Assembly: GCF_007753265.1 (NCBI RefSeq)
Contig: NZ_CP036349.1
Location: forward strand, 3,877,363 to 3,941,362
Source of the DNA: Botrimarina mediterranea
Lineage (GTDB): Bacteria > Planctomycetota > Planctomycetia > Pirellulales > Lacipirellulaceae
DNA length: 64,000 bases
Direction of reading: 5' to 3'
The position numbers were made by a program, and so were the translations under genes. Positions 39,777 to 46,172 of the stretch are shown here, one piece after another (the first letter of the stretch is position 1; every line of letters begins with the position of its first letter). The notes under the pieces were generated by a model. The model searched no databases, had not been told where the DNA came from, and was given only the letters and a program-made list of their open reading frames with translations.

Positions 39777-39957
39777 CGAGAGTCGCGTCGCACTCTTCGT
39801 GCGGCATGCGCCGTTGGCGCCGGCTACGCGGGCCTCCGCAGGGCCGTGGTGAGTGTGGCTTTCCCGTTACGGTGACGTACGGTTCGGCAGAAGTTGTGTC
39901 GCCACTCGGCGCCGGATTTACCGGCGGAGAGAGGCGACGTTCCGACTGCCGACGCCG

Positions 39958-41322
39958 ATGGTCTCGCTCGACTCTGCTTTCACCGATGGCGCTTTCACCG
40001 AAGGCGCCTTCGCCGACAACCAGCTCTTCTCGCCGCTACTGTCGGACGAGGAGTTCTGCCCGCGCGAACCCACGGACCTTGCGGAGACGGGGGTCAGCCG
40101 CGTGCTGCTCGAGGAGCTAGCGCTGAAGCTGCTGCTGCAGGTCGGCTCGGCCGCGGGGCGCGAGATCGGCCGGCGGATGTGCCTGCCCTTCTGTCTGGTC
40201 GAGCCGCTGTTAGGCGATTTGCGGTCGCGGCAGCTGATGTTCCACGAGCGGCAGGCGCCGCTGAACGACTACTACTACGCGCTGACCGACAGCGGTCGCG
40301 ACCGCGCGGCGTCGGCGATGAAGACCTCGGCGTACGTCGGCCCGGCGCCGGTGCCGATGGACGACTACGTCCTGGCGGTCGAGGCGCAGACCATCCGCGC
40401 CGAAGCGGTCCAGCGTCAGCAGCTCGTGCGGGCGTTCTCCGACATCAGCGTCGAACCGGCGCTGCTCGATGTGCTCGGCCCGGCGGTGAACTCCGGCGCC
40501 GGCCTGTTCCTCTACGGCGCGCCGGGCAACGGCAAGACGACCCTCGCTAAGCGAATCACGGCCTGCTTCGGCAAGAACATCTGGGTCCCGCACGCCCTGA
40601 TCGAAGACGGCCAGATCATCAAGTTCTACGACACCGCGATCCACACCCGGGCCGGCTCTGGGGACGACGACCTGGGGATGCTCGCCGAGGACGGCGTCGA
40701 TCCGCGTTGGATCAAGATCCGTCGGCCGACGGCGATCGTTGGCGGTGAGCTGACGATGGACAGCCTCGAGATCCGCCACGACCCGGCGTCGAAGGTCAGC
40801 GAGGCGCCGCTACAGCTCAAGAGCAACTGTGGCTGCCTCTTGATCGACGACTTCGGCCGCCAACGCGTCGAGCCGACCGAGCTGCTCAACCGCTGGATCA
40901 TCCCGCTGGAAAACCGCTGTGACTACCTGACGCTCGCCAGCGGCAAGAAGGTTCAGACGCCGTTCGACCAGCTGATCATCTTCTCGACGAACCTCGAACC
41001 CCACGAACTAGCGGACGAGGCGTTCCTACGCCGCATCCCTTACAAGGTGGAGGTGACGGACCCAACGGTCGATGAGTTCCGCTCGTTGTTCCGGGCGAGC
41101 TGCGAGTCGATCGGCTGCGCATACCGACCCGAAGCGGTCGACTACCTGCTGCAGAAGCACTACCACCCGCGGAAGATGCCGCTGCGGCGTTGCCACGCGC
41201 GCGACCTGTTGATGCAGGTGCGGAACTTCTGCGCGTACCAGGGCCTGCCCGTTGAGTTGCGGCCCGACTACCTCGACCGCGCGGTGGGGGCGTACTTCAC
41301 GGCCCTCGGCGGCGCGAGATGA
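39958..41322 (+). CDS. AAA+ ATPase of the kinase-tubulin operon
   Basis: About 454 residues. The N-terminal part has a helical section near residues 45-100 that could be a winged helix. The AAA core holds Walker A GAPGNGKT (187-194), Walker B LLIDD (294-298) and sensor 1 FSTN (342-345). The C-terminus carries an Arg-rich lid (HPRKMPLRRCHARDLL). No family name can be assigned; the length and the very large insert between Walker A and B differ from MoxR. The start is the ATG at 39958. It overlaps the kinase-tubulin gene by 4 bp (ATGA), the tightest possible coupling, so it probably remodels or delivers that protein. Confidence 0.85.
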   Translation: MVSLDSAFTDGAFTEGAFADNQLFSPLLSDEEFCPREPTDLAETGVSRVLLEELALKLLLQVGSAAGREIGRRMCLPFCLVEPLLGDLRSRQLMFHERQAPLNDYYYALTDSGRDRAASAMKTSAYVGPAPVPMDDYVLAVEAQTIRAEAVQRQQLVRAFSDISVEPALLDVLGPAVNSGAGLFLYGAPGNGKTTLAKRITACFGKNIWVPHALIEDGQIIKFYDTAIHTRAGSGDDDLGMLAEDGVDPRWIKIRRPTAIVGGELTMDSLEIRHDPASKVSEAPLQLKSNCGCLLIDDFGRQRVEPTELLNRWIIPLENRCDYLTLASGKKVQTPFDQLIIFSTNLEPHELADEAFLRRIPYKVEVTDPTVDEFRSLFRASCESIGCAYRPEAVDYLLQKHYHPRKMPLRRCHARDLLMQVRNFCAYQGLPVELRPDYLDRAVGAYFTALGGAR

Positions 41323-44300
41323 ATCTCATGAACGACCCGCGAGAAAGCGTCGTGAACGACAACCACCAAAAGCCCGACGTGCTGCTCCCCGGCTACGAGC
41401 TGATCGAGAAGATCGGCGCGGGCGGTTACGGCGAGGTGTGGAGCGCCATGGCGCCGGGCGGGCTGCACAAGGCGGTCAAGTATGTCTTCGGCAATGAGTT
41501 CGACAAGCGCGCCATCAGCGAGATGAACGCGCTGCAGAAGGTGAAGTCGGTGCGGCACCCGTTCTTGCTCTCGCTCGAGCGGATCGAGGTGGTCGACGGC
41601 CGGTTGATCGTGGTGTCGGAGCTCGCCGACGGCAGCCTGCGCGACCGCTTCCGTGAGTGCTTCGCGGAGGGTCTCCCGGGCATCCCGCGCGACGAGCTGC
41701 TCGGCTATCTAGCCGACGCCGCCGACGCGCTCGACTACCTTGCGGACCGGCATGAGCTGGCGCACCTCGACATCAAGCCCGAGAACCTGCTGCTCGTGGC
41801 GGGGCACGTCAAGGTGGCCGACTTCGGCCTCGTGAAGAGCCTGAGTCTCCAGACGCAGGCGTCGCTGGTGGGCGGCATGACGCCCGCGTACGCAGCGCCC
41901 GAGGTGTTCCGCGGTGTGCCGACTCGCCATAGCGATCAGTACAGCCTAGCGATCCTCTACCAAGAGATGCTGACGGGCGCCCCGACGTTCGCCGGCGCCA
42001 ACGCGGCGGAGCTGACGCTGCAGCACATGAAGGACGACCCGGACCTCCACTCGCTCGGCGGGGCGGACCGGTTCGCCGTGGCGCGGGCGCTGTCGAAGGA
42101 CCCCGCGAACCGTTTCGACTCGGCCCGCGCGTTTGTCGCGGCGTTGCGATCGCAACCGACTTCCTCGGCGTTCGATGGCGCGGCGTGCAACGTCGCGAGC
42201 CCTCCCGAAAGCCGTGAAGCTTTCACGGCCCCGGCGGCGAATCGCTTTTCGGTGACCGAGGTCTTCGAGGACAACCCGGCCGAAACGGGTCCTGGCGGGT
42301 CGGAGCTCGCGACGGTGCGGCCCGCGCCGCTCGTCACGCCCAAGCCAAGCGAGGTCTCGGCGCCCGACGCCGACGCCTCGCCCTTCGCCGCGGCGCCGGC
42401 GGTCTTCATCGGCGTCGGCGGGACCGGCGCGCGGGTGCTCCGCGCCTTGCGCGCGCAGATGCGCGAGCGTCTCGGCGCCACCGCGCCGTTGCCAGCGGCA
42501 CCGATGCTGCTCTTCGATACGGACTCGCGAACGCTGGCCGCTGCTTCCATCGGCGGCGATCGCGGCATCGGACTCGACGCCGGCGAAACGGTGTCGCTGC
42601 CCCTCCGGCGGCCGCAGGCGTACCGCGACAAGTCGGAGCTGCTGCTGCGTTGGCTCGGCCGCCGCTGGTTGTACAACGTCCCGCGCTCGCTACAGACCGA
42701 GGGCATCCGCCCGCTCGGTCGCCTGGCGCTGGTAGACCACGCGCGCCAAGCGTTCCAACGACTGCGATCGGTGGTCTCCGGCGCGATCGAGCCCGACAGC
42801 CGCGACGCCTCGACCGAGGCGATTGGCCTCTCGTTCGATCAACCCGGGTTACGGGTGTACGTTGTCGGTTCAACGGCCGGCGGGACCGGGTCGGGCATGT
42901 CGATCGACATCGCTTACGCGGTGCGTTCGATTGTGAAGCGACTAGGCGTCGAGGACGCGACGGTCATCGGTGTGATGACGCACTCGACTTTCCGAGAGAA
43001 CAGCCGATCCGAACTCGCCCGGGTGAACTCTTACGCCTGGCTCAGCGAGTTTGAGCAGTTCCGCCAGAGCGATCAGGGCTACCCAGGCGACTCGAGTGTT
43101 GGGCTGCCCGAACACGAACGCGGCGTCGAGGCGTTCGACCACACTTACTTCGTGCCGCTGGGCGAGCAGATCGATACGCCCGCTCTGGAGTCCGCCGCCG
43201 AAGCGGTTGCGGAGTACCTGTTCGCCGACGCGTTCACCACGGGGCAACGCCTGCTCGACGCGTTCCGCGCCCAGCGCGCGGACGCCAAGGGTTCGACGCT
43301 GCGTTCGTTCGCCGTCCGTCACCGCGACAGCCAAGGCGATACGACACTCAGCCCGCTGGAGAGCGCTGCGGTTTCGCGGATGCTCGATCGGTGGGTTGGC
43401 GTCACTACGGACGAGCCCCCAGCGACGGACCTCAACTCGACCGACCAGGTGGTGCACGGCGCTGTGGCGTTCTTGGGTCGCACGCAGCTCGACGCCTCGA
43501 CACTTGCGTCGAACTGCCGCTCGATCCTGGAAGCGTCGCTGGGCGGCGACGCGTCGGCGTACTTCGAGGCCCGCTTCGGCGCCGATCGGTCGCGCAACCT
43601 CGCCGCGCTCGGCGGCAAGATCGATGAAGGCTTCGGGATCGTCTCCGCCGACGACGAACCGACCAAGCTCGAACAGAAAGTGATCGACACGATCATCGAG
43701 CCGATGGTCAACAAGCTGGCGGAAGAGTCGATCGCCTGGACAATCGGCCGCGTCAACGACACGCAAGAACGCCTCGAGGGCGCCGATCGGGCGATCCGTT
43801 GGCTCGAAGATCACTTGAATGCCGTCGAGGCCGACCTGCAGAAGGTGATGGCCAACGTCGTTGCGGATCGCGCGCGGGTTGTGAAGAACAACGCCAAGGG
43901 CGACAAGTTCAAGCTCTTCCGTCTGAGGCTCGATCACGCCGCACTCGTCGCCGCCCGCCGGATCAGCCAGCGGTTGCGTGAACAATTGCGGGAGCTGCCG
44001 GCCGAGCTGACAACGCTAAGGGACGTGATCGAGTCGTTGCGTCCGGCAGTGAACCTTGAGGCGTTGGACGCCCCGCCGTCGGAGATCGAGCGGTTCTCGA
44101 TCGCGCTCGAGCAGCGTCTGCAGGCGGATTACCTGACGTCGCACGGGGGGCTGCTCGGCGCACTCGCCGAAGAGACCCGCTCGCCATCGCTGGCGGGGAC
44201 GATCGCTCACGGCGCGAAGCGGGTCGCCCGCGACGGGGCAAACGCCTCTCGGGCCGCCGCCGACGCCGCTTTGACGGCCGGCTTTGCCGAACCACCGCTG

Positions 44301-44591
44301 CAGGATTGCGGCGGCGACTACTGCCATCTGACGATCCAGCAAACGTCGCCCACCGACACCACCGAGGAGAGCGAGCTGCTGCTCGTCACCGAGATGGCGG
44401 GCGTCTCGCTGCCGCACCTCGCCGCGTCGCTGATTGGCGGACGCCGTGACTACGCCGCGTACGCCGAGCGCGTCCGCACACGTCGTGACATCGAGTGGCG
44501 CGACCCTGTTCTGTCGGCAGACAAGACGCCTTCGCCGCTGGTCTCGACGGTCGGCGTCTGCGCCGGCCCGATGGTGACCGCCGTCCTTTAA
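41319..44591 (+). CDS. Ser/Thr protein kinase fused to tubulin-like GTPase (Tubulin_2 type)
   Basis: 1090 residues. Residues 26-285 form a eukaryote-type kinase: G-loop IGAGGYGEV (32-40), Lys 54, catalytic loop HLDIKPEN (149-156, Leu instead of Arg in HRD), DFG at 168-170 and APE after MTPAY. A low-complexity linker follows. From residue ~362 a second domain begins IGVGGTGARVLRAL, and GGTGSG (521-526) matches the tubulin/FtsZ nucleotide loop. The C-terminal ~250 residues are strongly helical with coiled-coil character. The closest family I can name is Tubulin_2 (PF13809), of unknown function. The kinase is probably active despite the HLD loop. No transmembrane helix is evident. The adjacent AAA+ and FHA-EAL genes suggest one signalling unit. 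Confidence 0.88.
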   Translation: MNLMNDPRESVVNDNHQKPDVLLPGYELIEKIGAGGYGEVWSAMAPGGLHKAVKYVFGNEFDKRAISEMNALQKVKSVRHPFLLSLERIEVVDGRLIVVSELADGSLRDRFRECFAEGLPGIPRDELLGYLADAADALDYLADRHELAHLDIKPENLLLVAGHVKVADFGLVKSLSLQTQASLVGGMTPAYAAPEVFRGVPTRHSDQYSLAILYQEMLTGAPTFAGANAAELTLQHMKDDPDLHSLGGADRFAVARALSKDPANRFDSARAFVAALRSQPTSSAFDGAACNVASPPESREAFTAPAANRFSVTEVFEDNPAETGPGGSELATVRPAPLVTPKPSEVSAPDADASPFAAAPAVFIGVGGTGARVLRALRAQMRERLGATAPLPAAPMLLFDTDSRTLAAASIGGDRGIGLDAGETVSLPLRRPQAYRDKSELLLRWLGRRWLYNVPRSLQTEGIRPLGRLALVDHARQAFQRLRSVVSGAIEPDSRDASTEAIGLSFDQPGLRVYVVGSTAGGTGSGMSIDIAYAVRSIVKRLGVEDATVIGVMTHSTFRENSRSELARVNSYAWLSEFEQFRQSDQGYPGDSSVGLPEHERGVEAFDHTYFVPLGEQIDTPALESAAEAVAEYLFADAFTTGQRLLDAFRAQRADAKGSTLRSFAVRHRDSQGDTTLSPLESAAVSRMLDRWVGVTTDEPPATDLNSTDQVVHGAVAFLGRTQLDASTLASNCRSILEASLGGDASAYFEARFGADRSRNLAALGGKIDEGFGIVSADDEPTKLEQKVIDTIIEPMVNKLAEESIAWTIGRVNDTQERLEGADRAIRWLEDHLNAVEADLQKVMANVVADRARVVKNNAKGDKFKLFRLRLDHAALVAARRISQRLREQLRELPAELTTLRDVIESLRPAVNLEALDAPPSEIERFSIALEQRLQADYLTSHGGLLGALAEETRSPSLAGTIAHGAKRVARDGANASRAAADAALTAGFAEPPLQDCGGDYCHLTIQQTSPTDTTEESELLLVTEMAGVSLPHLAASLIGGRRDYAAYAERVRTRRDIEWRDPVLSADKTPSPLVSTVGVCAGPMVTAVL

Positions 44592-44641
44592 CTCACCCCA
44601 CGCTGCTTCGCCTCGACCGCGACCAGCCATCGACCATCTCC

Positions 44642-45739
44642 ATGAGCGTTGCCACCCCCGAAGCCACGACCGGCGCCTGGATGCTTAGCGGCCAGGTCAG
44701 CGACGACGAGCCGATGCGTAGCTACGCCATCGACGCGTCGCCGTTCACCGTCGGGCGCCGCCCCGACCAGAAGCTCTGCCTCACCTCGCCAACGGTCTCC
44801 GGGGCTCATGCCGAGATCCTCTTCGTCGAAAAAGGGCTGGTGGTCCGTGACCTCGGCAGCACCAACGGCACCTTCGTCAACGGCGAACGGGTCCACGGCG
44901 AATGCCCGATCGGGCACGGCGACCTCGTGCAGTTCGCCCAGGTGGTGTTCCGCACAGGGCGCAACGCCGCGACGAACCACTGCCAGACGATCAAGGACGA
45001 CTCCGCTGACCGTGCGTTATCGCTGATCCAATTCGACAAGCTGATGACCGAGCGGGCGGTCGTGCCGCACTTTCAGCCGATCGTGTCGATGAAGTCTCAG
45101 CAGGCGTTTGGCTACGAGATCCTCGGCCGCAGCCGGCTGTTCGGCCTGAGCGATCCGCAGACGATGTTCGGCGCCGCGGCGGTGCTCAATCTTGAGTCGG
45201 AGCTGAGCCGCATCTTCCGCGAAGAGGGCCTGCACCTCGGTTCGGTCTTGCCGGAACAGCACCTGCTGTTCGCCAACACGCATCCCAACGAGATCGAAGA
45301 GCCCGAGCTGTTGGAGTTCTCGCTGCGTGAGTTGCGTGAGTCGGCGCCGACGCGGCCGCTGGTGCTAGAGATCCACGAGAAGACCGCGACCCAAACGCAG
45401 CCGATGCGCGAGCTGCGGGCCAAGCTCAACGACCTGAACATCGGCCTGGCGTACGATGACTTCGGCGCCGGCCAGGCGCGGTTGATCGAGCTCGTGGAGG
45501 TCCCGCCCGACTACTTGAAGTTCGACATGGCGCTGGTGCAGAACATCCACGCCGCCTCGACTGAGCGGCAGAAGATGGTCGAGCGCCTGGTGCAGATGAC
45601 GGCAGAGCTGGGCATCATCCCGCTCGCCGAAGGGATTGAGACACGCGAAGACCACGAGGTCTGCGCGCAGATGGGCTTCTTGTGCGGGCAGGGCTTTTAC
45701 TACGGAAGGCCGGCGGCGGCGCAAACGCTCATCGGCTAA
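44642..45739 (+). CDS. FHA-EAL protein (phospho-Thr reader fused to c-di-GMP phosphodiesterase)
   Basis: 365 residues. The FHA domain spans about 28-110 with GRR (38-40), SGAHAEI (His of the phospho-Thr pocket near 57) and GSTNGTFVNG. The EAL domain follows from about 125. Key residues that can be seen: Glu 159 in GYEILGRS (EAL position, here EIL), Asn in FANTHP, Glu in LEIHEKT, Asp 272-Asp 273 in DDFGAG, Lys 293 in LKFD and EGIET near the end, so hydrolysis of c-di-GMP is plausible. A GGDEF domain is absent. It is 50 bp after the kinase-tubulin gene. Kinase output on its own FHA partner or another protein could set phosphodiesterase activity; that is inference. Confidence 0.92.
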   Translation: MSVATPEATTGAWMLSGQVSDDEPMRSYAIDASPFTVGRRPDQKLCLTSPTVSGAHAEILFVEKGLVVRDLGSTNGTFVNGERVHGECPIGHGDLVQFAQVVFRTGRNAATNHCQTIKDDSADRALSLIQFDKLMTERAVVPHFQPIVSMKSQQAFGYEILGRSRLFGLSDPQTMFGAAAVLNLESELSRIFREEGLHLGSVLPEQHLLFANTHPNEIEEPELLEFSLRELRESAPTRPLVLEIHEKTATQTQPMRELRAKLNDLNIGLAYDDFGAGQARLIELVEVPPDYLKFDMALVQNIHAASTERQKMVERLVQMTAELGIIPLAEGIETREDHEVCAQMGFLCGQGFYYGRPAAAQTLIG

Positions 45740-45809: not shown

Positions 45810-46172
45810 TCACCCAAACAGTCCTTTCTTCAAAAACGCCTTCCGCGCCGTCTCCACATCGGGTTCGATGCTGAAGAGCTTGTCGAGCCTTGTGATCTTG
45901 AAAACTTCTTTGATATCGGGCGAGACGTTGGCGAGTTTCATTTTCGCCTTGTAGCTGGTGACCTTCTTCTGGGTCTTCACCAGCTTGCCGAGCATGGAGG
46001 ACGACATGAACTGGACTTTGGAAAAGTCTACGATGACGCGGCTTTCGGTGGAGGCGTCGATCGCTTCGTCGAGTTCCTGCTCGAGCTTGCCGATCTTCGT
46101 CTCGTCGAGCAGACGGACGTCATCGATCTGGATGAAGAGGATGCCGTCGCGGATCGCGGTGGTGATCGCCAT
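45810..46172 (-). CDS. STAS-domain protein (anti-sigma factor antagonist)
   Basis: 120 residues, one STAS domain. The phosphorylatable Ser motif is VQFMSSSMLGKL (Ser 57-59), in the position of SpoIIAA Ser 58. Such proteins bind anti-sigma factors or other partner-switching kinases when unphosphorylated. No anti-sigma factor or sigma factor gene is adjacent. It converges with the kinase-tubulin/FHA-EAL operon, and the convergent position makes a direct link uncertain. Confidence 0.92.
   Translation of the reverse strand: MAITTAIRDGILFIQIDDVRLLDETKIGKLEQELDEAIDASTESRVIVDFSKVQFMSSSMLGKLVKTQKKVTSYKAKMKLANVSPDIKEVFKITRLDKLFSIEPDVETARKAFLKKGLFG

Follow-up and report, generated by a model that had tools for sequence, protein, structure and literature searches.

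The window analysed here, a stretch of 64,000 nucleotides from the planctomycete Botrimarina mediterranea (family Lacipirellulaceae, order Pirellulales), carries three co-directional genes on its forward strand, as confirmed from the sequence and from the list of open reading frames (positions are those of the window, and features lie on the forward strand unless stated otherwise). The first (39958–41322) encodes an AAA+ ATPase of 454 residues counted from the ATG at 39958, with a further in-frame GTG upstream at position 39853. It shares an ATGA stop-start overlap (41319–41322) with the second gene (41319–44591), whose product of 1090 residues is a fusion of a Ser/Thr kinase with a Tubulin_2 (FtsZl1) domain. 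The third gene (44642–45739), which starts 50 bp after the stop codon of the kinase-tubulin gene, encodes an FHA-EAL protein of 365 residues. The sequence and the reading frames bear out the first-pass annotation, which had described three same-strand genes with this overlap and this gap. Its domain calls also held, on Pfam matches for the kinase-tubulin and FHA-EAL proteins and on motifs and a modelled fold for the AAA+ protein.

Convergent with the FHA-EAL gene, on the reverse strand, lies a STAS-domain gene (45810–46172), recognized by Pfam and synteny. A STAS gene adjoins FHA-EAL in several genomes, even at a locus (L065) where the AAA+ and kinase-tubulin genes are gone. It was considered as a component of the trio and rejected: since one genome of the same genus (G009) has the STAS gene and no trio, its position probably reflects synteny rather than membership of the module. 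The host genome, 5.87 Mb on one contig, contains a single Tubulin_2 gene and gave no match to the FtsZ/tubulin profile (Pfam Tubulin, PF00091); many planctomycetes divide without FtsZ. Among c-di-GMP proteins, the same genome has seven matches to GGDEF and three to EAL.

The AAA+ core spans approximately residues 157–450 and contains a Walker A motif, GAPGNGKT (residues 187–194; 40516–40539), and a Walker B motif, LLIDD (residues 294–298; 40837–40851). It is preceded by an N-terminal alpha/beta region (about residues 36–125) that appears, from its secondary structure, to be winged-helix-like. Walker A, Walker B, the sensor N and the Arg residues were kept in 27 of 27 aligned sequences, an alignment that takes in the host genome's two deeper AAA+ paralogues, and a structural model of the protein adopts an AAA+ fold (mean pLDDT 75.7). 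No curated Pfam AAA family scored above its cut-off, and attempts to assign a subfamily by Pfam, NCBIfam and PDB sequence searches returned sub-threshold P-loop matches only. Fold neighbors of the model were Pyrococcus Q8U0N8, Lon, sigma-54 activators, NorQ and RuvB, which are too generic for a substrate to be assigned. The two deeper paralogues (G000:C1:1895409-1896659 and 5821034-5822266; loci L063 and L064) are common to most genomes of the family; one of them has an HDOD gene beside it in divergent orientation and a globin-like gene nearby, and the surroundings of the two gave no functional clue.

The kinase domain of the second protein (residues 26–238; 41394–42032) was recognized by Pfam with 103 bits and by alignment. 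The Hanks-type Ser/Thr kinase motifs GAGGYGEVW, KAVK, HLDIKPEN and DFG are all present, and HLD marks the kinase as non-RD. The catalytic Lys, HLDIKPEN and DFG are conserved among the aligned homologues, one of which has DYG. The tubulin-like domain follows (residues 362–642; 42402–43244), matching the FtsZl1 profile Tubulin_2 (PF13809) at 128.6 bits against a cut-off of 27. Its T4 signature GGTGSG (residues 521–526; 42879–42896) corresponds to the GTP loop GGGTG(S/T)G, which reads AGGTGSG in the window, with A replacing the first G. The T7 catalytic loop was not identified in the protein. A model of the tubulin region and C-terminus, built with 20 sequences, reached a mean pLDDT of 82.8 and a pTM of 0.59 and resembled CetZ, BtubB and gamma-tubulin, with Z scores of 22–25 over 278–319 residues. 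Since the structural alignments extend to model residues 707–726, beyond the long helical region, the model suggests a near-complete tubulin fold in which this alpha-helical region (residues ~708–990; 43440–44288) would be inserted in the second subdomain. A conserved C-terminal strand-helix segment (44301–44471) is predicted to pack back as the end of the fold; the exact strand assignment is one we infer from the alignment ranges only. The predicted fold and the T4 glycine loop thus resemble those of canonical FtsZ, tubulin and CetZ, but the long helical insertion and the fused kinase set the protein apart from them. The second half of the FtsZl1 fold had not been found in the 2010 analysis, as given in the main text of PMC2875224.

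In the third protein, Pfam and alignment place an FHA domain (44747–44935; 64 bits) ahead of an EAL domain (45047–45712; 136 bits). The FHA domain retains the phosphopeptide-binding residues GRR, SxxH and STNGT, and G38, R39, S53, H56 and N75 of the phosphothreonine pocket are invariant in the alignment. All the EAL residues are likewise present (E159, N212, E243, E246, D272, D273, K293, E330, E333 and Q350). The EAL domains of the trio keep the metal-binding and catalytic residues and align to solved EAL phosphodiesterases, and we predict that they are phosphodiesterases themselves. Between the two domains, conservation points to Thr116 (codon 44987–44989) as a candidate phospho-acceptor. It is kept in 36 of the 38 trio-type FHA-EAL proteins, and its column has an entropy of 0.35 bit, compared to 3.2–3.5 bits for the seven columns before it. 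Among representatives of catalytically intact FHA-EALs (<70% identity) the position is Thr in 58 of 62, against a background Thr frequency of 8% in the linker, a count made softer by gaps in the linker alignment of distant FHA-EAL groups. In the trio proteins, position +1 relative to this Thr is hydrophobic and positions +3/+4 are often acidic or Asn.

A conserved threonine of this kind is what a switch of the DgcB, OdhI or GarA type would use, the flexibility of the segment being read from sequence variability only. We therefore regard Thr116 as a candidate phospho-switch, although it could have a structural role, for example in capping the following helix. The residue is also kept in FHA-EALs that are not linked to the trio, which rules out specificity for this kinase. 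OdhI and GarA of Actinobacteria are kinase-controlled FHA proteins with an intramolecular phospho-Thr ligand that inhibit metabolic enzymes by binding; unlike the trio, they involve no EAL domain and no tubulin-fused kinase. In DgcB of Bdellovibrio bacteriovorus, an FHA-GGDEF protein, the FHA domain recognizes a phosphopeptide of the same chain and thereby gates a c-di-GMP enzyme (PMC6733907). FHA gating of a c-di-GMP enzyme by an intramolecular phosphopeptide would be common to the two, the phosphopeptide of FHA-EAL being a candidate. DgcB, however, makes c-di-GMP and carries its phosphopeptide at the N-terminus, whereas in FHA-EAL the enzyme is an EAL domain, the candidate Thr sits in the linker that joins the two domains, and the neighboring gene encodes a kinase. 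Given DgcB, the same logic with the opposite enzymatic sign would be the most economical reading.

The inheritance of the three genes was followed in 44 genomes of the window's family, with tallies compiled manually on the basis of identity levels in the search output. The long kinase-tubulin found in the window (type A) and its AAA+ were present together in 20 genomes and absent together in 24. FHA-EAL was at least partly present in all 20 type-A genomes except G039, where the gene region falls on a truncated contig, and 22 of the 24 genomes without type-A kinase-tubulin also lacked this FHA-EAL. Fisher tests against type-A kinase-tubulin over the 44 genomes, with shared ancestry ignored, gave p values of 6e-13 for AAA+ and 4e-9 for FHA-EAL. 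Presence and absence agree inside four genera (g1, g3, g4 and g7) with the single exception of G006, in which FHA-EAL lies between SASA and STAS genes without AAA+ or type-A kinase-tubulin and a type-B kinase is present. G009, whose genome is one contig, lacks the entire trio and retains SASA, STAS, PSP1 and biotin synthase, the genes that flank the locus on both sides.

Three gene orders were found. In the window's family the order is AAA+, kinase-tubulin, FHA-EAL (layout 1), an uninterrupted co-directional run in 17 further genomes (18 rows minus the duplicates L171 and L172, plus L044, in which the EAL is frame-split; the trio loci L041 and L061 are interrupted by contig ends). At nine loci, mostly from Pirellulaceae (e.g. 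K23_9, Laterigemmans, Pirellula sp. and Mariniblastus sp.), FHA-EAL stands head-to-head with AAA+ followed by kinase-tubulin (layout 2). At six more, from family f6 of the same class or from genomes named Planctomycetaceae, the order is FHA-EAL, AAA+, kinase-tubulin (layout 3). Since the same genes stay close after rearrangement, these orders are strong evidence for joint function. Kinase and AAA+ trees, made by a quick method, recovered the same main clades and differed in deeper branching. In the kinase and AAA+ trees, respectively, SH-aLRT support was 98/98 for layout 1, 98/99 for five of the six layout-3 loci, and, for type B, 100/99 in the window's family and 100/98 in f2 (L061, labelled B in the trees, is type A).

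Neither kinase-tubulin nor FHA-EAL needs the other in every lineage, as is evident from the kinase-tubulins of family f8 and from 29 of the loci examined, in which FHA-EAL had no recognized trio or type-C partner. The f8 kinase-tubulins (L154, L156, L157, L167 and L168) occur several per genome, and no recognized AAA+ or FHA-EAL was found near them in the five loci examined. In family f6, intact FHA-EALs L134-L138 and L142-L147 have no recognized kinase, AAA+ or tubulin neighbor. Taken together, the recurrence of the trio, its three gene orders and its joint presence and absence support the single functional unit proposed in the first-pass annotation, and we consider it nearly certain that AAA+, kinase-tubulin and FHA-EAL form one unit. 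Kinase-tubulin co-occurs with FHA-EAL and AAA+ in Pirellulales and in family f6, which contradicts an accidental association.

A paralogous locus, type B, is seen with all its parts 11 times in the window's family and 6 times in f2. It comprises an AAA+ gene, an opposite-strand receiver/GGDEF protein, an FHA protein with an EAL remnant and a shorter kinase-tubulin. Catalytic residues are gone from the EAL remnant, whereas the phosphopeptide pocket of FHA and the motifs of the kinase are preserved. The motif GG[DE][DE][FY] was found in 0 of 18 type-B GGDEF-like proteins. The opposite-strand protein (L055 11527-12912; homologues L051-L062, L160-L164, L169 and L201) combines a degenerate receiver, a degenerate GGDEF domain and a weak CBS match, and stands beside the FHA protein with the dead EAL; the two have the look of a c-di-GMP enzyme pair turned non-catalytic. 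Since the AAA+, FHA and kinase-tubulin parts persist in type B although its EAL is dead, c-di-GMP hydrolysis is not the glue of the module. As far as sequence can tell, linkage to FHA is the constant feature and hydrolysis of c-di-GMP an optional one, so that hydrolysis as the obligatory end point of the chain, as first supposed, is contradicted for type B.

Additional support for a link between kinase and FHA-EAL comes independently from type C, in which an intact FHA-EAL follows an unrelated kinase. At six loci in f1 and f2 (L067 4405-10171; L068 5215-9970; L148-L150; L170) it lies directly downstream of a large kinase fused to a START-like region (a weak match), DUF5939 and a cyclase-like domain. 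Relatives of FHA-EAL are also found in gammaproteobacterial bins. In one Competibacteraceae bin (L193 5830-12566) FHA-EAL is clustered with a PP2C phosphatase, a HEAT-repeat kinase and two type II/IV secretion (PilT-like) ATPases, suggesting that in Gammaproteobacteria the protein is connected with pilus retraction.

Planctomycete FtsZl1 proteins with an N-terminal kinase were reported by Makarova and Koonin in 2010 (main text of PMC2875224), and the statement on this fusion is repeated in PMC9871819. Among the domains exclusive to cytoplasmic planctomycete kinases, the tubulin-like domain is the commonest associated one (PMC11032199). A reviewer of the 2010 paper had pointed to a diguanylate phosphodiesterase gene adjoining one kinase-FtsZl1 in Pirellula staleyi, and the authors set this neighbor aside, on the grounds that too few genomes had such genes and that their conservation was insufficient (PMC2875224, reviewers' exchange). 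In the kinase-fused branch of Pirellulales and family f6, the FHA-EAL and AAA+ neighbors are conserved after all. The window's protein shares with published FtsZl1 the same tubulin-superfamily domain and a coiled-coil or helical stretch that follows the GTPase core, but the published genomic context consists of vWA, GTPase and OmpA genes, and the AAA+/FHA-EAL module is absent from the main text (PMC2875224). Among the neighbor genes examined here, vWA, GTPase and OmpA were not seen; AAA+ and FHA-EAL are there instead. Searches of the open-access literature found no published description of the conserved trio, nothing relevant among papers on FHA-EAL with kinases, and no experimental study of FtsZl1 proteins. 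So far as these searches show, the trio is undescribed as a module and its parts are of known kinds. The first-pass statement that no characterized system has this composition thus stands, but novelty does not extend to all of the parts, given the kinase-FtsZl1 fusions reported in the main text of PMC2875224.

The best explanation of the whole, which we favor with moderate confidence, is a Ser/Thr-kinase signaling module whose reader and output would be an FHA-gated c-di-GMP phosphodiesterase. In this scheme, a kinase attached to a scaffold of tubulin fold (FtsZl1/Tubulin_2), with a dedicated AAA+ alongside, would phosphorylate a threonine, for which Thr116 in the FHA-EAL linker is the first candidate and a Thr in the kinase-tubulin linker the second. 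Binding of the phosphothreonine by the FHA domain, whether in cis or from one subunit to another, would shift the activity or location of EAL and hence the local c-di-GMP level. The GGDEF proteins of the genome could make c-di-GMP, and there are only three EAL matches, which we count in favor of this explanation. The substrate of the kinase, the sign of the effect, and control of the kinase by tubulin assembly or AAA+ remodeling are parts of the scheme that we infer; gating of the kinase by polymerization or GTP state, as supposed in the first-pass annotation, would be a conjecture of the same order. That the kinase controls FHA-EAL seems reasonably probable; a role of tubulin assembly in the module is doubtful. 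A bolder version, in which the tubulin-fold kinase would be a cytoskeletal or scaffold sensor, its AAA+-set assembly switching the c-di-GMP phosphodiesterase via FHA-read phosphorylation in planctomycetes without FtsZ, we think unlikely.

Equally unlikely in our estimate is a cytoskeletal or membrane-remodeling machine in which the tubulin fold would assemble, AAA+ would disassemble or load it, kinase and FHA would regulate it, and c-di-GMP would be a side branch. This would follow the FtsZl1 proposal of Makarova and Koonin (main text of PMC2875224) and is consistent with the predicted near-complete tubulin fold, with the lack of FtsZ matches in the host genome and with type B, which keeps all but EAL catalysis. 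However, the AAA+, kinase-tubulin and FHA-EAL proteins showed no hydrophobic window of the sort expected for a transmembrane segment, and the vWA and OmpA partners of that proposal were not seen among the neighbor genes examined. Moreover, several type-A members have a partly degenerate GTP-binding T4 signature (e.g. CGGSGGG, AGATGGG), whereas the kinase motifs are near-invariant.

We consider it rather improbable that FHA-EAL is a phospho-dependent scaffold only, recruited to the autophosphorylated kinase with its EAL domain serving as a c-di-GMP sensor and not as an enzyme. The type-B proteins, with dead EALs and a kept FHA, would fit such a role, as would a possible FHA docking site in the variable linker of layout-1 kinase-tubulins, a T-[EQ]-[VF]-F-[DE] motif (Thr313) in which Thr is present in 16 of 19 proteins. 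Yet no catalytic residue is missing from the EALs of the trio, which is what selection for hydrolysis would produce, and no conservation of the Thr313 motif (TxVF) was found in layouts 2 and 3. Since the motif is confined to layout 1, we have not used it as main evidence.

An anti-phage or conflict system is very improbable, and we rejected it. Kinase and AAA+ genes do occur in defense systems, and the kinase domain matches kinase models of the defense library, but this library of described systems and NCBIfam returned kinase-domain and short P-loop matches only, with none for FHA-EAL in the defense library. The trio is, moreover, coherently inherited and syntenic, not island-like, and its kinase and AAA+ genes yield trees with the same main clades. 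An accidental juxtaposition of unrelated regulatory genes, all three from large families common in planctomycetes, is scarcely credible and is refuted for Pirellulales and family f6 by the recurrence in three gene orders and the joint loss.

With these results, the kinase-fused planctomycete branch of FtsZl1 gains specific partners and, in c-di-GMP, an output that can be tested. Thr116, as a candidate phospho-switch, is testable by one mutation, and types A and B, with intact and dead EAL domains respectively, constitute a natural experiment on what the module needs. If the tubulin-fold kinase were indeed a sensor, the trio would connect a tubulin-like structure directly with a second messenger, and in its paralogous copy the c-di-GMP enzymes would have been turned into non-catalytic readers. 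The finding bears on the use of tubulin-fold proteins in planctomycetes that divide without FtsZ.
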